DNA of 43,280 nucleotides. Source: a virus. The notes beneath the pieces were generated by a model. The model saw nothing but the letters and a program-made list of their open reading frames with translations, had not been told where the DNA came from and searched no databases. This document shows, in pieces, positions 1 through 43,280 of the stretch. Position 1 is the first letter of the stretch, and every line of letters begins with the position of its first letter. The position numbers were made by a program, and so were the translations under genes. The stretch lies in the IMG/VR virus record IMGVR_UViG_3300046694_000166, positions 1 to 43,280 of that record. One strand, written 5' to 3'.

Positions 1-1341
1 CTGCGCTACCACAACGGCTGTGCAGCAGGGTCGCAAGTGTGCGGGGATGCGTCGTCTTCGGACTACGCCTGGAACGTCAATTTCAACAACGGCAATTCCG
101 ACTGGAACAACGTCAACAACAAGGCGTTCGTGCGTGCGGTGCGCGCGCCCAGTGAGTGTCAGGGAAGCCCGGGCGTTTCGCTCCGGGATCTGCATCAAGC
201 ATGGAAGGTTGCGCGTCGCAATAAGCGCGCGAGCGGCAATCAGCTCGCGTTCGAATCGAACTGGATCGACGAACTGCTCGATCTCCAGAAGCAATTGACC
301 GACGGCACCTGGTCGCCACGGCCAACCACCTGTTTCATCGCCCAGCGCCCGAAGGCGCGCCAGATCCACGCGCCTGACTTCGCCGATCGCGTCGTACACC
401 ACTGGCTTGTGCCGCAGCTAGAAGCGATCTACGAGCCGGCGTTCATTCACGACAGCTACGCGAGTCGGCGCGGCAAGGGAACGCATAAGGCTGTCGACCG
501 GCTGCATGATTTCATGCACGAGGTCCACAGCGGCCAGGGCGGCGGCTGGTACCTACAGTTGGACATCGCCAACTTCTTCAACAGCATCCATCGCCCTACG
601 CTGTGGTCGATGCTCAAGAAGCGGCTGGAGCGTTCCGCGCTAGCAGATGTCGCTCTCCGGGCCTCGCACGCCTTGCTCCGTCATCCTGTGAAGGCCCAGG
701 GTGTCATCCACCGGTCGACCGCTGATGAGCGCGCAAGGGTGCCGATGCATAAACGCCTGGAGAACGCTGCACCAGGCTGCGGCCTACCGATCGGTAATCT
801 CTCCAGCCAATTCTTCGCGAATGTATATCTGGACCAGCTCGACCAGTTCGTGAAGCACACGCTGAAGGCAAAGCGGTATCTCCGTTTCGTCGACGACTTC
901 GTGCTGGTGCACCGCGACCGCGCGGTGCTGGAGGAGTGGAAGGAGCAGATCGAGGCCTTCCTCGAGCGCGAGCTCCGGCTGAAACTCAAGGATGACGTGC
1001 GCCTGAGGCCGCTGTCCGTCGGCATCGATTTCCTGGGCTACATCGTCTATCCGACGCACCGCCGCGTGCGTCGTCGTGTCCTGCATCACGCACACGAGGC
1101 GTTGCGCGCATGGCATGCGGCCCATGTCCGCGACGGCAAAGCCTGGGCGTCACCGGCGGATCTGCGGCAGCTCAACGCCGTATGGGCGAGCTACACGGGC
1201 CACCTTGCACACGCCAGCACATACAGGTTGGTGCAACGCATGCTCGCTCGCCAACCATGGCTGGCCTCGCTCACATCCACAAAGCGTCGCTTCAGCCATC
1301 AGCTGGAAGGGCGGCGCATCACGATCAAGGTGAAACGCTGA
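1..1341 (+). CDS. DGR reverse transcriptase (main part; ORF begins at 43145 across the circular join)
   Basis: This is the reverse transcriptase of the diversity-generating retroelement. It copies the template-repeat RNA with adenine-specific errors. Read across the join from ATG 43145, the product is 449 aa. Visible RT motifs are motif A YLQLDIANFF with Asp191, LPIGNLSSQ at about residues 265-273 (the IGxxxSQ form typical of DGR RTs), and the catalytic FVDDF with Asp301-Asp302. The first ~54 residues are encoded by the template repeat and are unlikely to belong to the polymerase fold; RT-like sequence begins at about SLRDLHQAWK. The gene follows avd with a 4-base ATGA overlap and is followed by a small ORF sharing one base with its stop codon. 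An internal start after the TR cannot be excluded, but no in-frame ATG with a ribosome site is evident there. Assignment as a DGR RT is very secure; the exact start is less so. Confidence 0.95.
   Translation: MRYHNGCAAGSQVCGDASSSDYAWNVNFNNGNSDWNNVNNKAFVRAVRAPSECQGSPGVSLRDLHQAWKVARRNKRASGNQLAFESNWIDELLDLQKQLTDGTWSPRPTTCFIAQRPKARQIHAPDFADRVVHHWLVPQLEAIYEPAFIHDSYASRRGKGTHKAVDRLHDFMHEVHSGQGGGWYLQLDIANFFNSIHRPTLWSMLKKRLERSALADVALRASHALLRHPVKAQGVIHRSTADERARVPMHKRLENAAPGCGLPIGNLSSQFFANVYLDQLDQFVKHTLKAKRYLRFVDDFVLVHRDRAVLEEWKEQIEAFLERELRLKLKDDVRLRPLSVGIDFLGYIVYPTHRRVRRRVLHHAHEALRAWHAAHVRDGKAWASPADLRQLNAVWASYTGHLAHASTYRLVQRMLARQPWLASLTSTKRRFSHQLEGRRITIKVKR
49..153 (+). repeat. DGR template repeat (TR)
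   Basis: This 105-bp TR matches two variable repeats at 37867-37971 and 42578-42682. It carries 24 adenines, 20 of them in AAC/AAT/AAG codons, the usual layout for adenine mutagenesis. All differences from the VRs fall on these adenines. It ends in the GC-rich block 131-153, followed by GAGTGT where both VRs have CAGTAA; this is the expected TR-version versus VR-version of the initiation-of-mutagenic-homology site. Most of it is repeated at 43202-43280 because of the circular overlap. It lies in frame inside the reverse transcriptase ORF. Confidence 0.95.
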
Positions 1342-5838: not shown

Positions 5839-6330
5839 TCAGGCCAGCAGGGCCCCGAGGTTGGATGCCGCCCCTACCTCTGCAACCGACGAGATCGCGT
5901 GCCGGATGCTCCAGTTGGCCAGGCTGGTATCCGACCAAGGAATCATCGGCTGAGTCACCTCCGTGCCGTTGGCGTCGATCGTTACCTGAGTGATCGGCTC
6001 GCCCAGCACGGCCAGCAGATGGCACTTCGTCAGCGCATCGATGCCATTGGTCGAGATCTCCGCCAGCGAGCTGAGGTGGTTGAACTCCACCACCACCTCC
6101 GAGCCGTTCGGGCACAGCTTGGTGCTGCCGTCCGCATTAATCAGGCGTCCGGACGCATAAAACACCAAGCCGGCGTTGTTCTCCTGCCAGGTGCGCTCGA
6201 CGTACACGGCAACGCAGTCTCCCGTATCGAGTGTGACCGCGACTTCGTCGGTGTAGAGACCGGGGTCGCTGATGGCAGTGGCGTCCGCTGCGCGCGGCGC
6301 CGGCTGGGGATTGGTGACGGTGTAGCCCAT
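5839..6330 (-). CDS. Hypothetical tail-associated protein
   Basis: A 163-aa protein following the tail-tip gene by eight bases, with GTGAGG upstream of the ATG. The sequence is beta-rich in character (alternating polar and hydrophobic residues, many Thr/Val) with no recognised motif. In siphovirus genomes this slot often holds a tail-tip accessory, fibre or decoration protein. That role is inferred from position only. Confidence 0.7.
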   Translation of the reverse strand: MGYTVTNPQPAPRAADATAISDPGLYTDEVAVTLDTGDCVAVYVERTWQENNAGLVFYASGRLINADGSTKLCPNGSEVVVEFNHLSSLAEISTNGIDALTKCHLLAVLGEPITQVTIDANGTEVTQPMIPWSDTSLANWSIRHAISSVAEVGAASNLGALLA

Positions 6331-6339
6331 GCTATTGCC

Positions 6340-9300
6340 TCACGGTTTGGCGATGACGTTGTGGGAGTAAATGCGGTGCGACGGATCCGCGCCGGCGGCG
6401 TAGCTGCAGCCGCCGTAGTGCTGGTGGCACACCAGCTGCTCGCCGATCTCCACGACGCTGGCCACGACCTCGACACCCTTGTCGGTGATCACTTCGAGGC
6501 CCTCCATCTCCGGCGCGTACGTCATGCCACCGCTTGGCAGGTCGAACGGCGTGGACGCGCTGCACTCGAGGACGGCGCCGCCGGACGTGGTGAGCCGCAC
6601 GCAAGGCTGCGTCGACATCTCCATGCCCCGCAGGCGCCGACGGAACTTGCGCAGGCCGGAGGATGGGATGTCCAGGCAATCGGCCAGGAAACCCTTGACC
6701 GCTTCCGACGCCTGGGTGTCCTGGTCGAGCCACATGTGCGCGCAGACACAGGATCCGGAGCCACCACCGCCGCCACCACCGGATCCGCCGCCACTCGTCG
6801 GATACGCCACCTGCACCGGTCCTACGTAGACGTAGCCGTCGCCGGTGTACAAGTCGTTGCCGTTGGTCGTCGCGATGAGCGTTTGCACGCCACCGGAGAA
6901 CTTAGGGTCGTTCATGTAGAGGTAGTACGTCGGCGTCGTGCCGTTCGTACCGCTGACACTCACGCTGCTCGCATTGTAGGCGGTCGACACACTGCCATTC
7001 AGCACGGTGAAGGCGCCGACGCTGATCGTGGCAGTTGCCGGCGATCCCGCAGTGGCCGTGTAGCTGATCGTCGTCGGCACCTTGGCCGGGATGTTCGTGA
7101 CGGTGCGCTGCTTGAGATTTCGCTGGTCACCGATCTGCGCGCCACTTCCAGCCACGCGGACATCATTGACCGAGCACCATACGTAGTTGAAGGCCGCGAA
7201 TTGGCTGGCTGTGCCGCAGTAGCAGCCAAGGATCATATACGCAGCTGTCGGTGGGACGACACCGCTTGCCGTCACCGCTTGCCACGTAGGCGACGAGCCT
7301 CCGGCCGCGATCGAGCTGACGAACGTGCCGTTGTTCGTCGTGAACGTCACTGTGATCGCCGAGAAGACGCCACTGGCCGCATCCATCAGGCCGCCGACGC
7401 TGATGCTGTCGCCGGGATTCACTGCGTAGCGCCGGTTCGTAACCATGGCCCCGGGCCCGCTACTGGGCGCATGGACTACGAGGTACTGGCTGCCGACAGC
7501 TGGCGACGGCGACGCGCCCTGCAGAGCCGCACCCGTCGTTGAAGGGCTTGCCGACCAGCCTGGAATGGCACCGGTGCTGTCTGGAGCCAATTGGAAGGTA
7601 GCGTTGTCAACGGTCAGCGCGCTTGCTGCGGTCGACTGTTGGACATTGCGGACGTAAGTTGCGCCGTCGGGCACCTCGTCGACGCTGTTTGGCTGGTAGG
7701 TCCATGCCATGTCGTCGAAGTTGTAGAAGCCGTTGGTGTTCGTGCCAAAGCCGACACCAGGCGACATGATCGCAAAGGCGGCGTTCGATGGCGCAGTGCC
7801 TGCGACGGAGAGAAGCTGCGTCGAGTTGCCCACCGTCCCCGAGCTGACAGGCGACGCCGGCGACGCGATGTCTGAGCCGTTGATATCCTGAAACAGAATG
7901 CGGATCGCGGGTGTTCCTGTCGGCGACGAGATGCCTTTGACCTTGCAAGTTGCCTTGATGATCTGGCCAGGCACGACAGGGGCTTTGAAGGCGTTACGCA
8001 GGAAGGTGGTCGTGGTACTTCCCTTGTGCACGGCGTACGTTGTCGTGCCGGCATTCGGCCCGTTCGTGCCGGTCTCGCCGTACCAGTTGGCGGCGTCCGA
8101 TTCCGGCGTCCAACCTTGAAGGCCGAGATCGAAGCCAGGGTTCTGGATACCGACGAGCGTCTGGTTCGACGTCACATCGGCACCAGGCTGCGCCGGCTTC
8201 AAAGAATCTACCGACTGCCCGGTGGTGTAGTTGACCTGCCCTGCGGCTGTGACGAACTGCCCGAAGAGGTTGTCGAATCGCGCACCCCAGCTGGCGATCG
8301 TCTGTGCCGATGCCGCGGAATTGGAGGCCTGCACATAAGCGAAAGCCGTCGCGTAGCTCGTGCCAGCCGGGACCGTGAACTGGTTGTTGGCGTAATTGTG
8401 GTACGCGCTGGTGCCAGTCGTGGCTCCAGATATACCGGCAACCATGGTGCCGACCTGGGTACCGGCAGCGTTGAAGAAGTTGAGGCCTAGATAGACGTTG
8501 AAGCTGATGTTGGCGCCGTTGCCACCGGCCGAGAAGGTGAAAATGTCGCCGCTCAGGGAGACCAGCTGGCCGGCCTGCACATAGATCGGCGCCGACGAGA
8601 CAACGCAGCTGATGCTGGAGTTTGCAGGAACGGACGTGCCGGCCGCAACGTTGAGCAGCAGATTGTTCGGCCCGACGTCAGTGGTGTTCGCGTCGCGCGA
8701 GGCACTGAAGCCGGTGCTGATGGCCGACAGATACCACGAGTCGCACACCGGCATGTTCAGGGCGGTGACGTTGGCGGGCGCGCGGATGTTGTTCAGTTCG
8801 AACGAGGGGTTCGGTACGAAATTGGAGCCGGACGCTGGCGTCGCATACTGGCCGGCCAGTTGGTCGTAAAGGCGAGGCGGCGCCAGCACATCCGATGCGC
8901 CGAGCACATGGCTGTAGGCCGTGACGGCGGACAGCTGCTCCATGCCAGCGCCGAACGTGTTGAAGCTGACGAACTTGAAATACGTCGTCGCACCGCGCTT
9001 GCCGCGGTCGTAGGGGATGCGAAAGATCGCGTCATCGATGCGCGCAAACACATCGCCGGTAACGTGCGCCTGGGAGCTCGATCCGAAGCCGCCGCGGCGC
9101 AGATAGCTGAGCCCATACGACAGCGTGCCCGTGAGCGTTGCGTTCTCGAAGGCGATGAACTCACCGCCGCCTGCACCGCCCACGAAAGCGAACTGGCGCC
9201 AGTTGTCGGCGTCGGCCTGGGTGCCACCGGTGAGCTGGCCACGCAGGAGGCTGACGTTCATCGTGTTGGCCGTGTCCGGATCTGCGCCGGCCGCCAGCGA

Positions 9301-10830
9301 GCCCGTCAGAGCGCCATAGCGCGCAGGCGCCACGATGCGCCCGATCCGCTTGTACGTGAGGTTGTCCTCGGAGGCGTATACCTCGCAGCCGCCCCACCAC
9401 TGTCCAATGCCCGCCACCGCAATCCACGTCTCGAAGCCGCTGGTGGTCAGCATCGACGGCGCGTTCATGATCACCGGCGGAGCCACGCTTCCCGGCGACA
9501 CGTTGAAGTCCTGCGAATAGCCGAAGGGCGACTGCGTGTTGTATTGCGGCGCGTGCGCCACGCCGATCGGGAGCTCCTCCGCCTCGAACGACATCTCGTC
9601 GTCCTGTTCGCTCGCCTTGGTGATGCGCACTAGCTCGCGGCTGAGGCCCGCGTTCGGATCCGTCAGGGTGACGACATCCATCGGCTCGAGGAGCATGTAC
9701 TTCATGGTCGTGCGGAAGCTGTAGGTCTTCCGGATGTACAGGTCGCGCTGCAGGATGAGCTGTGCCACGTCACGCGCGGTCTGCGCATCGGTGATGCCAT
9801 TCACCTGGATGTCGGACATCGGATACGAGCCGCGCGCATCGATGTCGGCCTGGTCCTTGGCCTGCTGAACGACCGTGTTGTAGGCGTTGGTGCGGTCGTT
9901 GTATTCGATCCGGATCGAGTTGTGGCAGTCCTCCAGATCCTTCCAGTCGAGCTCGACGCCAATGTCGCTGCCATCGCTGTAGAGGTAGTCGTCCGGGCCA
10001 AGATCGTAGAGCGGCGTGACGTTCGGCGTGTAGGTGCCGTAGGTGCCTGTGATCGCCGTATCGCCGAAAGGCAGAAGGTTGAGCTTGTTGTAACTCCACA
10101 CCGGCGCGAAGTTGCACCAGGTCGACATGTCGTTGACGAAGTCGGCGGCCGTGCGCTGCTGATCCTCGATCGGCGACATGAACAGGCCACGCGCCAGGTG
10201 GTAGGTGCGCAGCTGCGACACGTCGCCCAGCCACGCGCTGAAGCCGGCGCCGTGCGTGGCGTTGGTCAGGTAGTCGGTCAGGATGTCCGACGGCAACGCG
10301 TCGTCGACCGTGCCGGCGTTGTAGGGCGACAGCCCCTTCACTTCGAAGTTGAAGTTCGGGAGACTGGTGGAGGTGCCCAGTTGCAGCGTCGAGGCCGCCA
10401 CATAGGCGACGCCCGAGTACGGTACCGCCTGCGCCGCGTTGAAGCTGGCCAGCCACGACCAGGCCGACTGCGGCGTGGACCCGTTGAAGACGGTGAAGCC
10501 GAGGTCGCCCGTCGTGTGGACTTCTTGCTCTTTCCAGACGGTACCGATGCCGGCGATCTGGCCTTCGGTGAGCAGGATGATCGTGCCGGTCGTGTAGGTG
10601 TAGCTGGTCGATGCGGATCCGCCACCACCACCGCCCTTGCCGCCCGACTGCTGTTTGTCCGTGTGCGGCGTGGCGATCCAGTTGCCGTACCAGCCGAGAT
10701 TGCCTGCGATGCGGTTCTTGCCATAGAGCAGAGGCAACACAGGGCCGTAGGTGCTGGTTTGCACCTGCAGGGCGCTGACGGCCTTGTTTTTCTGCGACGT
10801 GGCTTTCTTACCGCCGAACATTCCGGTCAC
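6340..10830 (-). CDS. Tail tip / host-specificity protein with C-terminal Hint-like domain
   Basis: The largest gene, 1496 aa. The N-terminus (VLPLLYGKNRIAGNLGWYGNW, then a Gly-rich insert) and middle resemble the phage tail-tip hub family that includes lambda J and the PF13550-type putative tail proteins. Residues ~650-1330 are Ser/Thr/Ala-rich with repeated jelly-roll-like modules (NPSFELNN, NPGFDLGLQGW), likely carbohydrate-binding. A poly-Gly linker at about 1347-1360 precedes a 136-aa C-terminal segment starting CVCAHMW and ending SHRIYSHNVIAKP, with ECSASTPFDLPSGG inside. This is a Hint-like domain of the kind seen at the end of some phage tail proteins. It probably binds the host receptor or glycans. 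Its stop is eight bases before the next gene's ATG; its start overlaps the NlpC/P60 stop. Confidence 0.88.
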   Translation of the reverse strand: MTGMFGGKKATSQKNKAVSALQVQTSTYGPVLPLLYGKNRIAGNLGWYGNWIATPHTDKQQSGGKGGGGGGSASTSYTYTTGTIILLTEGQIAGIGTVWKEQEVHTTGDLGFTVFNGSTPQSAWSWLASFNAAQAVPYSGVAYVAASTLQLGTSTSLPNFNFEVKGLSPYNAGTVDDALPSDILTDYLTNATHGAGFSAWLGDVSQLRTYHLARGLFMSPIEDQQRTAADFVNDMSTWCNFAPVWSYNKLNLLPFGDTAITGTYGTYTPNVTPLYDLGPDDYLYSDGSDIGVELDWKDLEDCHNSIRIEYNDRTNAYNTVVQQAKDQADIDARGSYPMSDIQVNGITDAQTARDVAQLILQRDLYIRKTYSFRTTMKYMLLEPMDVVTLTDPNAGLSRELVRITKASEQDDEMSFEAEELPIGVAHAPQYNTQSPFGYSQDFNVSPGSVAPPVIMNAPSMLTTSGFETWIAVAGIGQWWGGCEVYASEDNLTYKRIGRIVAPARYGALTGSLAAGADPDTANTMNVSLLRGQLTGGTQADADNWRQFAFVGGAGGGEFIAFENATLTGTLSYGLSYLRRGGFGSSSQAHVTGDVFARIDDAIFRIPYDRGKRGATTYFKFVSFNTFGAGMEQLSAVTAYSHVLGASDVLAPPRLYDQLAGQYATPASGSNFVPNPSFELNNIRAPANVTALNMPVCDSWYLSAISTGFSASRDANTTDVGPNNLLLNVAAGTSVPANSSISCVVSSAPIYVQAGQLVSLSGDIFTFSAGGNGANISFNVYLGLNFFNAAGTQVGTMVAGISGATTGTSAYHNYANNQFTVPAGTSYATAFAYVQASNSAASAQTIASWGARFDNLFGQFVTAAGQVNYTTGQSVDSLKPAQPGADVTSNQTLVGIQNPGFDLGLQGWTPESDAANWYGETGTNGPNAGTTTYAVHKGSTTTTFLRNAFKAPVVPGQIIKATCKVKGISSPTGTPAIRILFQDINGSDIASPASPVSSGTVGNSTQLLSVAGTAPSNAAFAIMSPGVGFGTNTNGFYNFDDMAWTYQPNSVDEVPDGATYVRNVQQSTAASALTVDNATFQLAPDSTGAIPGWSASPSTTGAALQGASPSPAVGSQYLVVHAPSSGPGAMVTNRRYAVNPGDSISVGGLMDAASGVFSAITVTFTTNNGTFVSSIAAGGSSPTWQAVTASGVVPPTAAYMILGCYCGTASQFAAFNYVWCSVNDVRVAGSGAQIGDQRNLKQRTVTNIPAKVPTTISYTATAGSPATATISVGAFTVLNGSVSTAYNASSVSVSGTNGTTPTYYLYMNDPKFSGGVQTLIATTNGNDLYTGDGYVYVGPVQVAYPTSGGGSGGGGGGGSGSCVCAHMWLDQDTQASEAVKGFLADCLDIPSSGLRKFRRRLRGMEMSTQPCVRLTTSGGAVLECSASTPFDLPSGGMTYAPEMEGLEVITDKGVEVVASVVEIGEQLVCHQHYGGCSYAAGADPSHRIYSHNVIAKP

Positions 10831-33983: not shown

Positions 33984-34129
33984 GGGTGCTCCGATCGGAA
34001 CCGCAGCAGCGCGCAGCAGGCCTGGATCCAGGCGTTCTGCTCGGAGGCGGTGAAGTGGTAGGAATTGCGCGCAGCAGCGAGTGGCGCATGCGCCCGGCGG
34101 ACGGAAAGACGGAACATGCGGCGGCGCAT
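33980..34129 (-). CDS. Small basic protein, 49 aa
   Basis: MRRRMFRLSVRRAHAPLAAA start; a central YHFTASEQNAWIQACCALLRFR. The ATG shares a base with the stop of the CII-like gene and its TGA overlaps the next ATG, so it exactly fills the gap. That packing is the main evidence; the function is unknown. Confidence 0.65.
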   Translation of the reverse strand: MRRRMFRLSVRRAHAPLAAARNSYHFTASEQNAWIQACCALLRFRSEHP

Positions 34130-34566
34130 CAGGGCGTGCGTCCGTTCAGTGCATCGGTCAGCACGCGTACCTTGGTGCGCTCGGCCTCGAGCGCTTCCGT
34201 GGCCTGGCGCAGTGCCTGCTCGGTTTCGGATTCACGCTTGCGCAGGCTGGCCACGTCATAGCCGCGGTGGTGCGACAACCAGATCAGCGGCGCTTCGTTG
34301 CCGCACAGATCCATCAGCGCGCTGAGCTTGTCGACGGGGAAATGCGCCTCGCCGCGGTGGATCCGCGACCAGTGGCCAGCGTCTATATCGAGCGCGGAAT
34401 AGACCTGCTTGTCAGCCTCGAAACCGCCCAGGGAAATGCACAACTTGATGGCCGCGAGCATGCTGGGCTGCGCGATCACGAGCTTCGGGTCTACGCTCTG
34501 GGTGGTCCTCACCAGGCGAAGTGACAACTGGGGGTCGGCAAAGGCCGGCCCGACATTTGACTTCAT
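34129..34566 (-). CDS. CII-like / HTH regulatory protein
   Basis: 145 aa. The middle contains a helix-turn-helix-like GGFEADKQVYSALDIDAGHWSRI with HRGEAHFPVDKLSALMDLCGNEA, followed by a C-terminal coiled coil (RKRESETEQALRQATEALEAER). It is the third gene of the leftward operon after Cro, the place of cII in lambdoid phages. A role in lysogeny choice is inferred from position and DNA-binding pattern. Confidence 0.7.
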   Translation of the reverse strand: MKSNVGPAFADPQLSLRLVRTTQSVDPKLVIAQPSMLAAIKLCISLGGFEADKQVYSALDIDAGHWSRIHRGEAHFPVDKLSALMDLCGNEAPLIWLSHHRGYDVASLRKRESETEQALRQATEALEAERTKVRVLTDALNGRTP

Positions 34567-34772: not shown

Positions 34773-34997
34773 CTATGCCGCCTGCTCTTGCGTCTTCGTC
34801 AGGCGCGGCGGGGGCAACACGCCCGTCGAGAACAGGTTGTGCAAGCGCACCGCCGCCATGCCGCGCGGCTCTTTGCTGCGACCCTGCTTGATGTCGCTCA
34901 ACGACGACGGGTTCGGTATGCCGATCGCTCGAGCTATGGCCGTGAGCGACCAACCACGATCTTCGAGCGCTGCGATCTTGTCTGCCCAGGTTTCCAT
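34773..34997 (-). CDS. Cro-like HTH regulator
   Basis: 74 aa from ATG 34997 (METWADKIAALEDRGWSLTA). A helix-turn-helix (WSLTAIARAIGIPNPSSLSDI) is followed by basic SKEPRGMAAVRLHNL. It is divergent from the CI-like repressor across a 65-bp operator region and is the first leftward gene, so it should oppose the repressor. The predicted transcription start nearly coincides with the ATG. The upstream ATG at 35021 lies within the promoter and is rejected. Confidence 0.82.
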   Translation of the reverse strand: METWADKIAALEDRGWSLTAIARAIGIPNPSSLSDIKQGRSKEPRGMAAVRLHNLFSTGVLPPPRLTKTQEQAA

Positions 34998-35004
34998 GAA
35001 GCAT

Positions 35005-35062
35005 ATCTTATGGCATCCCATAGACGAGCGTCAACGTCATCCCATAACGCGATTCCATAACC
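35005..35062. promoter_or_regulatory. cI-cro operator/promoter region
   Basis: Leftward promoter: TTGACG (35029-35034), 18-base spacer, TAAGAT (35005-35010). Operator 1 is the palindromic TATGGCATCCCATA at 35009-35022, overlapping the -10. Two related half-matches, both of form AACGyNATyCCATA, lie at 35033-35046 and 35046-35059, toward the repressor gene. The 14-mer operator recurs exactly at 36247-36260. Confidence 0.75.
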
Positions 35063-35723: not shown

Positions 35724-35772
35724 GCGATGCGGCGCGTGATCGATCATCCGTACGTCTGCAAGGGGAAGTGTG

Positions 35773-36141
35773 ATGAAGCGTTTGTTTGCGGTCGCAGTCG
35801 TTGTCGTGTCATTGGCCGGCTGTGTCTCCGCCGGCACTAAGGTGGATCCTAACGTCGTCAGCAGCTTTCAGCCGGGCGTGACCACGCTCGACCAGGCCGA
35901 GGCGAAGCTGGGCACGCCCAACTCCGTAACAAAGCTGCCCGACGGCACCACCGTCATTGGCTATGCGTTTACGCACGCCCAAGCGAGCGGCTCCAGCTAC
36001 ATCCCGGTTGTCGGGGCTTTCGTCGGCCACTCCGACGCCAACACCGTCATCGCCACGCTGACCTTCGACAAGGGCGGCAAGTACGTGCAGTCCTCGACGA
36101 CGACGAGCCAGACCAAGGCCGGAATGTTCACCAGCCAGTAA
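35773..36141 (+). CDS. BamE/SmpA-OmlA-like lipoprotein
   Basis: 122 aa from ATG 35773 with AAGGGGAAG upstream. The signal peptide ends in lipobox SLAGC (MKRLFAVAVVVVSLAGCVSA), so it should be an outer-membrane or inner-membrane lipoprotein. The middle (FQPGVTTLDQAEAKLGTPNSV) is the SmpA/OmlA motif of BamE-like proteins. The gene lies beside the repressor with its own terminator, the usual place for lysogenic-conversion genes. Altering the envelope or blocking superinfection is a hypothesis. Confidence 0.82.
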   Translation: MKRLFAVAVVVVSLAGCVSAGTKVDPNVVSSFQPGVTTLDQAEAKLGTPNSVTKLPDGTTVIGYAFTHAQASGSSYIPVVGAFVGHSDANTVIATLTFDKGGKYVQSSTTTSQTKAGMFTSQ

Positions 36142-36167
36142 CTGGCGCGGCCAGTTCGACGAGCTCA

Positions 36168-36191
36168 AGCCCGCCCAGCGCGGGCTTTTTT
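36168..36191 (+). terminator. Terminator after lipoprotein gene
   Basis: Stem AGCCCGC/GCGGGCT with loop CCAGC, followed by six T. It separates the repressor/lipoprotein transcript from the early promoter that follows. Confidence 0.85.
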
Positions 36192-36221
36192 GTGCCAGCA
36201 GGATCTGCCGCAGAGAAATAT

Positions 36222-36262
36222 TATGGGATTCCATTGACAGCTTAATTATGGCATCCCATAAT
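36222..36262 (+). promoter_or_regulatory. Rightward early promoter with two operators (pL-like)
   Basis: TTGACA (36234-36239), 17-base spacer, CATAAT (36257-36262), close to the sigma-70 consensus. TATGGGATTCCATT at 36222-36235 overlaps the -35, and TATGGCATCCCATA at 36247-36260 overlaps the -10 and is identical to operator 1 at the switch. The switch regulators should therefore control the whole rightward operon, including the DGR. Confidence 0.82.
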
Positions 36263-37557: not shown

Positions 37558-37977
37558 ATGTCCCGTTTCACGAAGCTCGACGCCGCCCTGCAGCCACTTC
37601 CCGCCGATGCCACCGGCCATGTCGCCGTGTTGGACAACCAGCTCAACCTTATCTGGAGCGTCGACAACGTCGGCGGCAAGCGCCTGAATTGGGCTGAAGC
37701 GAAGGAAGCCGTGGCCACGCTCGACCTGGGCGGCAAGACCGACTGGCGCCTGCCCACCGTCGAGGAACTCTTTCTGCTCGCCGATCGCACGCGCTTCGAG
37801 CCCGCGATCGACACCGACGCCTTCCCGGCTTGTGAGTCGAGCTTCTACTGGAGCGGCACTGCGGATGCGTCGTCTTCGGACTGCGCCTGGGGCGTCGGTT
37901 TCCACGGCGGCAGTTCCGGCTGGAGCGACGTCGACGACGAGGCGTTCGTGCGTGCGGTGCGCGCGCCCAGTCAGTAA
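37558..37977 (+). CDS. DGR variable protein 1 (DUF1566/C-type-lectin-like)
   Basis: 139 aa from ATG 37558 with AAGGAGAA upstream. The body matches DUF1566/Lcl C-terminal-type domains: LNWAEAKEAV, KTDWRLPTVEEL, FPACESSFYWSG. The last ~37 residues are encoded by VR1 and end RAVRAPSQ. Such folds hold diversified residues on a ligand-binding face. No signal peptide, lipobox or transmembrane helix is visible, so a cytoplasmic or virion-borne role is more likely than self-export. It is transcribed with early recombination genes, away from and opposite to the tail genes. The ligand is unknown. Confidence 0.9.
   Translation: MSRFTKLDAALQPLPADATGHVAVLDNQLNLIWSVDNVGGKRLNWAEAKEAVATLDLGGKTDWRLPTVEELFLLADRTRFEPAIDTDAFPACESSFYWSGTADASSSDCAWGVGFHGGSSGWSDVDDEAFVRAVRAPSQ
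37867..37971 (+). repeat. DGR variable repeat 1 (VR1)
   Basis: Aligned to TR 49-153 with no gaps. Fifteen differences are found, all at TR adenines: 14 A to G and one A to C (TR position 85). The 81 non-adenine positions are unchanged. VR1 encodes the C-terminal end of the 139-aa DUF1566-like protein. Homology extends a little upstream, to TR 46. Confidence 0.95.
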
Positions 37978-38033: not shown

Positions 38034-39185
38034 ATGTCCACTGAAATCACCGAATACAGCCAGACCGAGCAAGCCCTCGCCGAGCTGCGTAACAAGTACG
38101 CGAACGCGGTCTTCGATGTGTCGACCACGAAGGGCATGACGCTGGCCAGGGAAGCGCGCGCCGAGGTTCGCGGCTACCGCGTCGCCCTCGAAAAGAAGCG
38201 CGTCGAGATCAAGGCCCCTGCGCTGGAGCGCTGCCGCCTGATCGACACCGAGGCGAAGCGCATCACGGCCGCGCTCGAGGCGTTGGAAGGTCCGATCGAC
38301 GAGATCATCAAGGCCGAAGAGCACCGCAAAGAAGAGGAACGGCTGGCCAGGCTCGAGGCCGAGCGCCAGCGCGTGCAGGCCATTACCGCAAAGATTGACA
38401 CCATCCGCGCGCTCCCCGCGTCGCTCGTTGGCAAGCCCTCCGTCGTGATCAAGGGTCAGCTGGCCAAACTCCGCGACCAGGTGCCAGATACCGGCGAGTT
38501 CGCCGAGCTGCTGCCCACGGCGCTGGACGCACACACCGCGACCATCGCGCGCATCGAGCAGCAGCTCCAGGCGCAGCTCGACCAGGAAGCTGAGCAGGCT
38601 CGCATCAAGGCCGAACGCGAAGAGCTCGATCGCCTGCGCGAAGCCGACCGCCTGCGCCGCGAAGAGGATGAGCGCAAGGCCGCTGCCGAGCGCGCCGAAC
38701 AGGAACGCCTGGATCGTGAACGCAGGGAGCGTGAAGATGCCGAGCACCGCGCCCGTCTTGAACGGGAGGCTCGCGAGCGTGCCGAGCGCGAGACCGAAGA
38801 GCGTCGCCAACGTGAAACCGCAGAAGCAGACGCGCGCCGCATCCGCGAAGAGGAAGAGCAGGCTCGCCGCGAGGAACAGGCACGTCAGCGCGCCGCGGAA
38901 GAGCAACGCCTGCAGGCCGAAAGGGAGCGTCTTGCCGAAGAGCAGCGCCAGTTCGAAGCGCGCCAGGCGGAGCAGCGTAAGAAGGAAGCGGCAGCTCGCG
39001 CCGCGGCTGAAGCGGAACGACTCGCAGGCCTCACGTTGCGCGATGCGACGCTGGCGGCTGTCCGGTGGTTTCACCACAACGGGCACGAGCTCGAACAGGT
39101 ATGCAAAGACCTCGAGGCGGCCCTCGCCAACGATGCACCTGCCGTCACCACGACGCGCACCCGTAAGAAGGCGGCCAGCGCATGA
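38034..39185 (+). CDS. Coiled-coil protein upstream of exonuclease
   Basis: 383 aa from ATG 38034 with GGAGAAGGAA upstream. The first ~80 residues have a helical domain (VFDVSTTKGMTLAREARAEV) like the DUF1351-type proteins that accompany phage YqaJ/RecT pairs. Residues ~190-340 are an extremely charged Arg/Glu coiled coil. The C-terminus contains TLRDATLAAVRWFHHNGHE. It overlaps the exonuclease start by four bases, so it probably assists recombination or DNA handling. Confidence 0.8.
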   Translation: MSTEITEYSQTEQALAELRNKYANAVFDVSTTKGMTLAREARAEVRGYRVALEKKRVEIKAPALERCRLIDTEAKRITAALEALEGPIDEIIKAEEHRKEEERLARLEAERQRVQAITAKIDTIRALPASLVGKPSVVIKGQLAKLRDQVPDTGEFAELLPTALDAHTATIARIEQQLQAQLDQEAEQARIKAEREELDRLREADRLRREEDERKAAAERAEQERLDRERREREDAEHRARLEREARERAERETEERRQRETAEADARRIREEEEQARREEQARQRAAEEQRLQAERERLAEEQRQFEARQAEQRKKEAAARAAAEAERLAGLTLRDATLAAVRWFHHNGHELEQVCKDLEAALANDAPAVTTTRTRKKAASA

Positions 39186-40069
39186 ACGCTCTGCTCGAAC
39201 CCCTGGTCAACACGCGCCACTACATCGGCGGCGGCAACATCGCCGGCATCCTCGGCCTGTCGCCCTTTAAGACGCCGCTCGACGAATACCTGACGATCAT
39301 CGGCGACCAGGAACAGCCGTCGCAGGACCAGCTCGATTTCTTCGCTCGGCGCAAAGCGCTGGAGCCGTTCGCCATCGAACTGTTCCAGCGCGAGACCGGC
39401 AAGACGATCGTCCGTGCCAACGAACGCTACACCGACCGCGAGCACCTGTTCATCAAGGCGGAGATTGACGCCGAGACCGTCGACGAGAACGTCGAGATCA
39501 AGAGCGTGCACCCCCTGGCAGCGAGCCACTGGGGTGACCCTGGCGGCGATTCGATTCCGACGTATGTGACCGCCCAGGCAATGCACGGCCTGATGGTCAA
39601 CGGTCGGCGCGTTTGCTACCCGGTCGCCATGATTGGCTTTGATGACTTTCGCGTGTACCGGATCGAGCGTGACGAGGAAACGATCCGCGGCATCCGCGAA
39701 CACGCTGTGTCGTTCTGGCGCAACCACGTCGAACGCATGGCGCCGCCCGACGCAGTGACCAGCGAGGACGTGAAGCGTCTGTTCAAGCGCGACAGCGGAG
39801 CGAGCAAGGAGGCCACAACCGAGATCGCCGCGGCCGTCGACGAACTGCGCCTTTGCAAGGCTGCTGAGAAGCGCGGCGAGGCCCTGGCCGAACAGATCAA
39901 GGTCTTCATGCTCGACGCCACAACGTTGACCGCCGGCGGTAAGTCGGTGGCCACCTGGAAGTCGCAGAACTCCACGCGCTTCGATCAGAAGGCCTTCGGC
40001 GCCGAACACCCCGCCCTTCTCGAACTCTTCAAGCACACGACCGAAACCCGTGTATTTAGGCTGAAGTGA
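39182..40069 (+). CDS. YqaJ-type viral recombinase exonuclease
   Basis: A 295-aa nuclease of the YqaJ family, a lambda exonuclease-like fold. Visible are IAGILGLSPFKTPLDEYL at the N-terminus, RKALEPFAIELFQRETG, and the catalytic pattern KAEIDAETVDENVEIKSVHP (Asp and Glu-x-Lys). It digests one strand of double-stranded ends to feed the RecT/Bet protein encoded two genes downstream. Confidence 0.92.
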   Translation: MNALLEPLVNTRHYIGGGNIAGILGLSPFKTPLDEYLTIIGDQEQPSQDQLDFFARRKALEPFAIELFQRETGKTIVRANERYTDREHLFIKAEIDAETVDENVEIKSVHPLAASHWGDPGGDSIPTYVTAQAMHGLMVNGRRVCYPVAMIGFDDFRVYRIERDEETIRGIREHAVSFWRNHVERMAPPDAVTSEDVKRLFKRDSGASKEATTEIAAAVDELRLCKAAEKRGEALAEQIKVFMLDATTLTAGGKSVATWKSQNSTRFDQKAFGAEHPALLELFKHTTETRVFRLK

Positions 40070-40430: not shown

Positions 40431-41474
40431 ATGAGCACTACCCAACTCAAAGCCGCAGCCACCAGCGGCACGCAGGTCGCTAAGGCGGACAAGCCGAAAA
40501 CCATCGCCGGCCTGCTCACCGATCCGTCCATCAAAAACCAGATGGCGCTGGCGCTCCCGAAGCACATGACGGCTGACCGCCTGGCACGCATCGCGCTCAC
40601 TGAGGTGCGAAAGAATCCGAAGCTGGCCCAATGCGATCAGACGTCGTTCCTTGGCGCGATCATGCAGTGCGCCGCACTCGGCTTGGAACCCGGTGGCGCG
40701 CTTGGCCACGTCTATATGCTGCCCTTCGACAAGCGCAAGAAGGTGGGCCAGCAGTGGCAGGTGGTGGCCACCGAAGTGCAGCTGATCGTCGGTTATCGCG
40801 GCATGCTCGATCTCGCACGCCGCTCTGGCCAGATCCTCAGCCTCGAAGCGCGCGCCGTGTACGAGCGTGACTTCTTCAAGGTCACCCTCGGTCTCGAATC
40901 GAACATCACCCACGAGCCCGATTGGCAGGCTGCTGACCGCGGCAAGGTCACCTTCGTGTACGCGGTGGCCAAGCTGCGCGATGGCGGTATCCAGTTCGAG
41001 GTTATGAGTGCGGCCGAGATCCACCGCATCCGAGATGAGAGCCAGGGATACAAGTCGGCCCTCGAAAGCGCGAAGAAGTACAACAAGGAGGCCAGCTCAC
41101 CGTGGATCAGCAACTTCGATGAGATGGCGAAGAAGACCGTCATCCGTCGCTTGTTCAAATACCTCCCGGTGTCGATCGAGATCCAGCGTGCCGTCGGTCT
41201 CGACGAGCAGGCAGACCTTGGCTTGACGCAGGACACCCCGATCACCATCGAAGGCGACTACTCCACCGTTACGCCCGAGATTGGCCACGCCCACGACGAG
41301 CACGGCGGCGATGCCGGCGGTATCACCGCGCAAGACATCCACGACGCGCTCGCAGCGGCGTCGACGCGGAGCGAGCTCGACCAGGCGGCCGACCTGATCA
41401 GCCTGCTGCCCGAAGACCAGCGCAAGCCGCTCCTCGACCAGTGGAACGCGCGCTGCAGCGAGATCACCGAATAG
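40431..41474 (+). CDS. RecT/Bet single-strand annealing protein
   Basis: A 347-aa RecT family protein from ATG 40431 with AGGAGA upstream. Characteristic segments are LTEVRKNPKLAQCDQTSFLG, MQCAALGLEPGGALGHVYMLPF, VQLIVGYRGMLDLARRSGQI and WISNFDEMAKKTVIRRLFKYLP. It anneals single strands produced by the YqaJ exonuclease. Residues after ~275 form a variable acidic tail. Confidence 0.95.
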   Translation: MSTTQLKAAATSGTQVAKADKPKTIAGLLTDPSIKNQMALALPKHMTADRLARIALTEVRKNPKLAQCDQTSFLGAIMQCAALGLEPGGALGHVYMLPFDKRKKVGQQWQVVATEVQLIVGYRGMLDLARRSGQILSLEARAVYERDFFKVTLGLESNITHEPDWQAADRGKVTFVYAVAKLRDGGIQFEVMSAAEIHRIRDESQGYKSALESAKKYNKEASSPWISNFDEMAKKTVIRRLFKYLPVSIEIQRAVGLDEQADLGLTQDTPITIEGDYSTVTPEIGHAHDEHGGDAGGITAQDIHDALAAASTRSELDQAADLISLLPEDQRKPLLDQWNARCSEITE

Positions 41475-42184: not shown

Positions 42185-42688
42185 GTGCTGCCGTCCCTCA
42201 ACGTGAAGAACCTACACGTCCACCTGTATATGCCGGCGCTTCCGTCCGTCGCGGTGCCCGCCGACCTGGCCGAACTCAAGAGCGCTGTGGCCGCGAACCA
42301 GGCGACCGACCACTTTATCAAGCGCAACGACGGAGCGACGGTGCTCGACACGACGACCGGTCTGGAGTGGTCGGCCGACGCCATCGCGACCAACGCCATG
42401 ACTTGGGACAACGCCAAGCAGGCAGTGGTAAACGCCAACGTCGCGGGTCACAACGACTGGCGCCTGCCCACCGTCCAGGAGCTGCTCACGCTGGTGGACT
42501 ACGAGCGTCGTGATCCCGCTATCAACACGGATCTCTTCACCTGCAAGTCCAGCTACTACTGGTCATCGACTCCCTGCGCGTCGTCTTCGGGCTACGCCTG
42601 GGGCGTCTATTTCTACTACGGCGATTCCGGCTGGTGCGGCGTCGACTACTGGGCGTTCGTGCGTGCGGTGCGCGCGCCCAGTCAGTAA
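42185..42688 (+). CDS. DGR variable protein 2 (DUF1566/C-type-lectin-like)
   Basis: 167 aa from GTG 42185 with AAGGAGAA upstream. An N-terminal ~45-residue extension (VKNLHVHLYMPALP, then a short helix ADLAELKSAVAANQA) precedes a DUF1566 domain: TTGLEWSADAIATNAMTWDN, GHNDWRLPTVQELLTLVDYE, CKSSYYWSSTPC. VR2 encodes the last ~36 residues, ending RAVRAPSQ. Diversified positions are rich in Tyr, Gly, Asp, Cys and Trp, suitable for binding. No secretion signal is visible. It sits 25 bases upstream of avd. Confidence 0.92.
   Translation: MLPSLNVKNLHVHLYMPALPSVAVPADLAELKSAVAANQATDHFIKRNDGATVLDTTTGLEWSADAIATNAMTWDNAKQAVVNANVAGHNDWRLPTVQELLTLVDYERRDPAINTDLFTCKSSYYWSSTPCASSSGYAWGVYFYYGDSGWCGVDYWAFVRAVRAPSQ
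42578..42682 (+). repeat. DGR variable repeat 2 (VR2)
   Basis: Aligned to TR 49-153 with no gaps. Sixteen differences are found, all at TR adenines: 10 A to G and 6 A to T. Asn codons of the TR have become Tyr, Cys, Gly, Asp and Trp (Lys) codons. VR2 encodes the C-terminus of the 167-aa DUF1566-like protein directly upstream of avd. Confidence 0.95.
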
Positions 42689-42713: not shown

Positions 42714-43148
42714 ATGAGCTACGCCCTCCCACCCATTGTGAAGACAGCAGAACGCCTGCTCTTTGAGATCGAGCAGGCGGTCCGTTGTTTCGCGCGATAT
42801 CACAAGTACAGCACGGGCTCGACGCTGCGTGAGCAGGCGATGAAGATCGCCCAGCTCACACATCGAGCCTGGCGTGATCGTGCCCGTCAGGCGCAATGGT
42901 TGGAGGGCTTGGCATCGGCCATCGACGATCTTCGCATCACCATGCAGTTAGGCAGCCGTCTTCAGGCGTTCCGCAGCTTTAGTCAATTCGAGCAGTTGGC
43001 TCGCACATTGTCTGAGCTCGGACGACAGGTAGGCGGCTGGCGCAAGCAGCAATTCCCCAAGGGCCAGAATGACCAGCGCTCTTCCGCTGGCCAGCGCGCC
43101 CAGACACTGAGTACCCGCAACGCCTCGACGTATGAGGCCAATCCATGA
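42714..43148 (+). CDS. avd: DGR accessory variability determinant (Avd, four-helix bundle)
   Basis: A 144-aa basic, all-helical protein between the VR2 gene and the RT. It has the four-helix-bundle pattern of Avd/23S-intervening-sequence-like proteins (FEIEQAVRCFARYHKYSTGS, FRSFSQFEQLARTLSELGRQ, GGWRKQ). Avd forms a pentamer that binds the RT and template RNA and is needed for mutagenic retrohoming in phage BPP-1. The Ser/Gln/Asn-rich C-terminal tail is likely disordered. The TGA overlaps the RT ATG. Confidence 0.9.
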   Translation: MSYALPPIVKTAERLLFEIEQAVRCFARYHKYSTGSTLREQAMKIAQLTHRAWRDRARQAQWLEGLASAIDDLRITMQLGSRLQAFRSFSQFEQLARTLSELGRQVGGWRKQQFPKGQNDQRSSAGQRAQTLSTRNASTYEANP

Positions 43149-43280
43149 CGACGCTGCGCTACCACAACGGCTGTGCAGCAGGGTCGCAAGTGTGCGGGGA
43201 TGCGTCGTCTTCGGACTACGCCTGGAACGTCAATTTCAACAACGGCAATTCCGACTGGAACAACGTCAACAACAAGGCGT
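43145..43280 (+). CDS. 5' end of the DGR reverse transcriptase ORF, running off the window end
   Basis: ATG at 43145 overlaps the TGA of avd (ATGA, 43145-43148), the arrangement expected for translational coupling. The frame is open to the end of the window and continues, through the identical sequence at 1-127, into the reverse transcriptase. The first three codons (43145-43153) lie only here. This segment includes most of the duplicated template repeat. Confidence 0.8.
   Translation, partial: MTTLRYHNGCAAGSQVCGDASSSDYAWNVNFNNGNSDWNNVNNKA
43154..43280. repeat. 127-bp end overlap identical to 1-127 (circular contig)
   Basis: The last 127 bases equal the first 127. The reading frame of the reverse transcriptase and the avd-RT coupling are continuous across the join. 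A 127-base overlap is a common de Bruijn graph k-mer size, so this is best read as the closing overlap of a circular assembly and not as a biological terminal repeat. The unique genome length is 43,153 bp. Confidence 0.9.

Follow-up and report, generated by a model that had tools for sequence, protein, structure and literature searches.

In phage lambda the repressor gene cI lies between two sets of operators acting on outward-directed promoters; in the lambda record a distance of 24 bp separates OL1 from OL2 and likewise OR1 from OR2, the last bases of OL2 are the TTG of the PL -35 element, and OL1 overlaps the PL -10 element. The diversity-generating retroelement (DGR) of the Bordetella phage BPP-1 belongs to a late structural cassette, where it neighbours its tail target mtd, and at what stage of the phage life cycle a DGR is active has been described as a question that few have studied (PMC11792537). 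Here, we analyze the viral record IMGVR_UViG_3300046694_000166 over its full length of 43,280 nucleotides (in the following "the window"), in which operators of a CI/Cro-type switch recur at the promoter of an early operon carrying a DGR. It is highly probable that this locus is a mirror-imaged, bipartite immunity region of the lambda type, whose CI/Cro operators on a PL-like promoter control the early operon including the DGR.

Control of a phage DGR by a repressor has, in principle, been reported before: when the CI-like repressor RepC_HP of the Bacteroides hankyphage was silenced, most phage genes were expressed more strongly, and DGR mutagenesis was seen in virion DNA (PMC12135933). Unlike the phage analyzed here, the hankyphage is Mu-like and diversifies a tail fibre, and the accessible text maps no operator at its DGR promoter. 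For the Burkholderia phage Magia a DGR and a repressor have been reported but no operators (PMC7883833), and a literature search of partial coverage retrieved no description of CI/Cro operators at the promoter of a DGR operon. New here is the presence of a DGR in the PL-like operon of an immunity region of the lambda type.

Operators shared by the switch and the early promoter

The 14-mer TATGGCATCCCATA occurs in exact copies at 35009-35022, in the promoter of the cro-like gene, and at 36247-36260, and the identity widens to the 15-mer TTATGGCATCCCATA (35008-35022 and 36246-36260). The second copy overlaps the -10 element of a near-consensus promoter, and a variant operator, TATGGGATTCCATT, contributes with its last two bases the first two of the -35 element. 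The exact repeat of the 14-mer and the overlaps with both promoter elements had been claimed in a preliminary description of the sequence and are borne out (Table 1). With up to three mismatches allowed, the 14-mer finds eight matches on both strands, compared with 1.05 +/- 1.10 in shuffled sequences, none of 100 shuffles reaching eight; seven of the eight belong either to the switch or to the distal promoter. When the 65-bp switch is compared with a 65-bp stretch around the promoter, the best 14-mer match is 14 out of 14, which none of 200 shuffles equalled. The early promoter is the sole sigma-70-like match on the + strand between 34.0 and 43.3 kb, and no further such promoter was found on this strand from 36.3 kb to the reverse transcriptase (RT) gene of the DGR.

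As in lambda, cI is placed between two operator sets on outward promoters, the paired operators being separated by 24 bp in the switch and by 25 bp at the early promoter, where one operator runs into TTGACA and the other covers the -10 element. The likeness extends to the genes: cro, a CII-like gene and replication functions lie on one side, whereas cI, an accessory gene in the rex position, a terminator, the early promoter and a PL-like operon with exonuclease and annealing protein lie on the other. The window differs from lambda in its mirror orientation, its unrelated 14-bp operators, a CI without S24 domain, the lack of a recognizable N-like gene and a DGR as cargo of the PL-like operon.

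The divergent cI- and cro-type helix-turn-helix (HTH) genes with operators between them are as expected of a lambda-type immunity region. In the CI-like protein of the window an HTH was found but no S24 (LexA-like) domain, and we therefore claim a lambda-type layout and not an S24-type CI. It is the S24 domain that endows lambda CI with cooperativity and a response to SOS. Since this domain is lacking, RecA-dependent (SOS) induction is doubtful for the phage of the window.

Conservation in relatives and in other DGR phages

Relatives were gathered by a search with the CI-like protein among viral contigs and genomes of Dyella and Luteibacter, records resembling one prophage being counted once. 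About 16 related phages carry operators in front of cI (-56 to -110 relative to cI) and again at a promoter 0.7-3.1 kb downstream of it. At the latter promoter one operator, the first, extends into TTGAC, the second covers part of the -10 element, and the pair is 24-25 bp apart. Switch operator 2 is conserved as AACGGCATCCCATA, and the weak third site has its counterpart AATGCGATTCCATA in Dyella (L040). In four relatives with a diverged repressor (L015, L017-L019) both operator sets have changed together, from TAT...ATA to TAC...GTA (TACGG..CCGTA), and so has the recognition helix of CI, from PYPTLAGIENGDQ to, for example, APTTLSDLELGLS; the recognition helix of Cro differs as well. Homologues of the CI-like regulator that occur with the same operators (L005, L007 and others) consist of HTH and Peptidase_S24 and are thus of the CI type. 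The C-termini of the CI proteins of L040, L004 and L013 are likewise unlike S24, yet these phages share their operators with S24-type homologues.

A scan for further operator copies, suggested in the preliminary description, was run in the nearest lysogens. In three whole genomes of Dyella and Luteibacter (4.3-4.7 Mb) the perfect operator TATGGNATNCCATA is present exactly twice per genome, both times at the two places in the immunity region, while a reversed control pattern did not occur in any of them.

The same relatives show that the operator was not copied specially for the DGR, as phages without RT carry the same pair. No RT was detected by Pfam in any of the 18 viral-contig records besides the window, several of which are fragments; L015 alone among them has an Avd match and an RT fragment. 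The claim that the switch operator is duplicated at the promoter of a DGR operon stands insofar as the same operator is found at both places, but the distal sites form an ordinary OL-like set. The DGR is cargo, most relatives with these operators being devoid of it. In the early operon of Dyella halodurans (L040, 13031-13459) a DGR target-like Lcl_C open reading frame (ORF) was found (58% to the VR1 target), and a search of this genome for an RT was negative; the ORF may be an orphan target or the remnant of a lost DGR.

DGRs with related RTs occupy the same place in phages with unrelated operators (L090, CTACGnnnCGTAG; L095, TTACCnnnnGGTAA; L097, TACCGnnnnCGGTA). An automatic search for twin operators under strict palindrome rules yielded little, namely L090 and one doubtful match, and the other operators were therefore found by promoter-anchored inspection and then shuffled. 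Counts of 2 out of 200 shuffles for L090, 3 out of 200 for L095, 0 out of 200 for L097 and 0 out of 200 for each of the cultured phages Magia (Burkholderia) and Haboob (Pseudomonas), in which the twin operators are again shared with the switch, are uncorrected for the choice of the tested stretches after inspection. Like the window, Magia and Haboob have an early operon behind a cro/CI switch, with genes for a nuclease, RecT or Bet, Avd and RT, and twin operators on the early promoter; they differ in unrelated operator sequences and an RT that is only about 40% identical. Operator inspection in phPA-G yielded nothing.

In L090 the first gene behind the operator-controlled promoter encodes a target-like Lcl_C protein, and four Lcl_C target-like ORFs are present in one DGR operon (6129-9491). 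ParB-like proteins directly precede Lcl_C targets in three DGR operons (L095, 7571-9136; L106, 4532-6508 on the - strand, a weak match; L107, 15148-16623). L108 (record G011) contains, at about 9473-10201 of the reverse complement, an RT fragment comprising only the N-terminal part (residues 3-109) beside Avd and Lcl_C proteins; this may be a DGR in decay. The idea that DGRs of this clade are always accompanied by RecT is not supported by a Pfam search for RecT, which matched the window alone among 13 records; genes for ERF, Bet or RecT are present in L097, Haboob, Magia and QDWS.

The early operon and its DGR

The window carries an identical terminal repeat of 127 bp (1-127 and 43154-43280), from which it follows that the genome is circular, with 43,153 bp, and that the record is opened within the DGR. 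The DGR is complete solely by virtue of this circularity, as the repeat places the RT gene, at about 160-1341, behind the other components. To the right of the switch, the CI-like HTH protein, a small lipoprotein-like ORF, the terminator and the twin-operator promoter are followed by a + strand run of small ORFs, Lcl_C target 1, DUF1351, YqaJ, HNH, RecT, an unassigned ORF, Lcl_C target 2, Avd, the template repeat (TR) and RT. This operon is co-directional and unbroken through YqaJ and RecT to the DGR, the RT gene wrapping onto the start of the record. To the left follow the Cro-like protein, the weakly CII-like regulator, a primosomal/DUF1376 protein and RusA, with terminase and portal genes farther along on the same strand. 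A blastn search of the region against phages returned no matches.

The TR and the variable repeats (VRs) of both targets are identical at all 79 non-A positions, whereas 15 and 16 of the 23 A positions, respectively, are changed. Because the VRs differ from the TR only at A positions, the DGR bears signs of past activity. No third VR was found in the structural genes. The order target, Avd-like protein, TR, RT and the A-specific variation are those of the BPP-1 element; unlike the latter, the DGR of the window belongs to an early operon and has two small Lcl_C targets.

Two further observations concern the vicinity of the switch. The predicted transcription start of cro (34997-35010) nearly coincides with the cro start codon, so that the cro mRNA may be almost leaderless. 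The lipoprotein-like ORF (35770-36141) is a candidate for expression from the prophage.

Table 1. Features of the immunity region, the early operon and the DGR in the window
Feature	Position	Strand	Basis and remarks
CII-like regulator downstream of cro	34129-34566	-	weak: PHROG 2345 (3.6e-5), PHROG 101 "CII-like" (4.9e-4)
Cro-like HTH protein, 74 aa	34773-34997	-	start chosen at METWADK; PHROG 6223 transcriptional repressor (1.4e-13); conserved in relatives
Leftward cro promoter	35005-35034	-	TTGACG 35034-35029, -10 at about 35010-35005; 9 of 12
Switch operator 1 (OR1-like)	35009-35022		exact 14-mer between -35 and -10 of the cro promoter; kept in relatives
Switch operator 2 (OR2-like), AACGTCATCCCATA	35033-35046		three mismatches; 24 bp from operator 1, overlaps cro -35
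Weak third site, OR3-like position adjoining cI start	35046-35059		sequence; half-site ATTCCATA
CI-like repressor, 180 aa	35063-35605	+	HTH_3; C-terminus without S24
Small lipoprotein-like ORF, position of lambda rexAB	35770-36141	+	PHROG 3135, function unknown; Dyella homologue 77% identical
Intrinsic terminator at the end of the cI transcript	36167-36195 (or 36167-36187)	+	8-bp stem and T-run, just upstream of the early promoter
Distal operator A (OL2-like)	36222-36235		3' end is first two bases of -35
Early (PL-like) promoter	36234-36262	+	TTGACA 36234-36239, 17-bp spacer, CATAAT 36257-36262; 11 of 12
Distal operator B (OL1-like)	36247-36260		overlaps -10; 25 bp from operator A
First early-operon gene, 68 aa	36296-36502	+	ATG after CAGGAG; Dyella homologue in the corresponding position, 55% identical
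DGR target VR1, Lcl_C domain, 139 aa	37558-37977	+	variable repeat 37867-37968; PF07603 (3e-28); TR/VR comparison
DUF1351 protein	38034-39185	+	score under Pfam cut-off
YqaJ-type exonuclease	39182-40069	+	PF09588 (9e-13)
RecT single-strand annealing protein	40431-41474	+	PF03837 (5e-51)
DGR target VR2, Lcl_C domain, 167 aa	42185-42688	+	variable repeat 42578-42679; PF07603 (1.7e-31)
Avd-like accessory protein	42714-43148	+	Pfam bAvd (6.7e-8), under cut-off; gene order fits
DGR TR	49-150	+	second, partial copy at 43202-43280 via the terminal repeat
DGR RT	160-1341	+	start uncertain; PF00078 (4e-19), PHROG 1423 (1e-101); end of traced operon, beyond circular junction

Proposed control of the DGR and its meaning

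That CI and Cro govern the operon of early ORFs, recombination genes and DGR, as the preliminary description had proposed, is something we strongly infer from the sequence: both operator sets are kept in the relatives, they change together with both recognition helices, the lysogen genomes hold only the two perfect sites and the geometry is that of lambda OL and PL. The CI-like and Cro-like proteins would bind operators of the TATGGNATNCCATA type, the set at 35009-35059 covering the leftward promoter of cro, the CII-like gene and the replication genes, and the set at 36222-36260 covering the rightward early promoter. As the operators are located at the -35 and -10 elements, 24-25 bp apart, at both promoters, bound repressor would exclude RNA polymerase. 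In a lysogen, CI would then hold the whole early operon off, that is the small ORFs, target 1, YqaJ, RecT, target 2, Avd, TR and RT, while upon infection or induction the operon would fire early and later be turned down by Cro. The outcome would be a pulse of diversification alongside the recombination genes, and low diversification in stable lysogens is a good prediction of this arrangement.

Several points weigh against such control of the DGR. It is assumed that transcription continues for about 8 kb as far as the RT gene; weak terminator-like matches inside the early operon fall within coding sequence, and the promoter scan leaves room for weaker or non-sigma-70 promoters near the DGR. With a CI devoid of S24 the details of control may differ from lambda, and the PL-like operators exist irrespective of the DGR. 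Furthermore, shuffle support for the same layout elsewhere is weak or nil in L096, L106, L107, L093, QDWS, Cruim01 and LPPA56: operator support is weaker in L096 and L106 and unconvincing in L107 and L093, and QDWS, LPPA56 and Cruim01 show the gene order with weak operator statistics.

Of the alternatives, it is unlikely that the DGR is uncoupled from the switch through a promoter of its own for avd, TR or RT, or through other limits such as the level of TR RNA, replication or host exonucleases, in which case lysogens would diversify like induced cells. The hankyphage DGR was active in uninduced cultures, albeit with spontaneous induction, which would fit, but its activity also accompanied silencing of the CI-like repressor (PMC12135933), and the window offers no + strand promoter-like match between 36.3 kb and the RT gene.

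A role of the distal sites mainly for Cro, which would shut off early transcription during lytic growth with little occupancy by CI in the lysogen, is improbable. Lambda OL is bound by both CI and Cro, and the recognition helix of the Cro-like protein does change together with the operators; nevertheless, CI-type homologues are conserved along with these operators, and it would be unlikely for the early exonuclease/RecT operon to stay open in a lysogen. Very improbable is an assignment of the sites to a host regulator or another phage regulator, given that the operators change along with CI and Cro and that the two perfect sites per lysogen genome both reside in the prophage immunity region, counts on which a host regulator is rejected. 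Finally, that some 14-mer is exactly repeated within 43 kb is not rare in itself, but the position of this repeat is the part that chance does not explain, and with 0 out of 100 and 0 out of 200 shuffles and both operator sets kept, in the same promoter geometry, by about 16 relatives, the probability of a chance match is negligible.

Under control by CI and Cro, the timing of DGR activity becomes readable from a promoter: as a prediction, the element would be silent in the lysogen and active in a pulse during early infection. The presence of the same layout in cultured phages makes a test practical. The layout also separates DGRs beside late tail genes, such as that of BPP-1, from DGRs in early operons, and the early placement raises the question of the role of the hypervariable Lcl_C proteins. 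We tentatively suggest, as a possibility that we would not yet call probable, an early-regulon class of DGRs in many lambda-type phages with unrelated repressors, in which the element sits in a CI/Cro-controlled PL-like operon and diversifies small early proteins of Lcl_C or lectin fold that act in or at the infected cell instead of late tail fibres. If this were true, pulsed co-expression with an annealing protein of the RecT/Bet type might aid recombination of the cDNA into the target.
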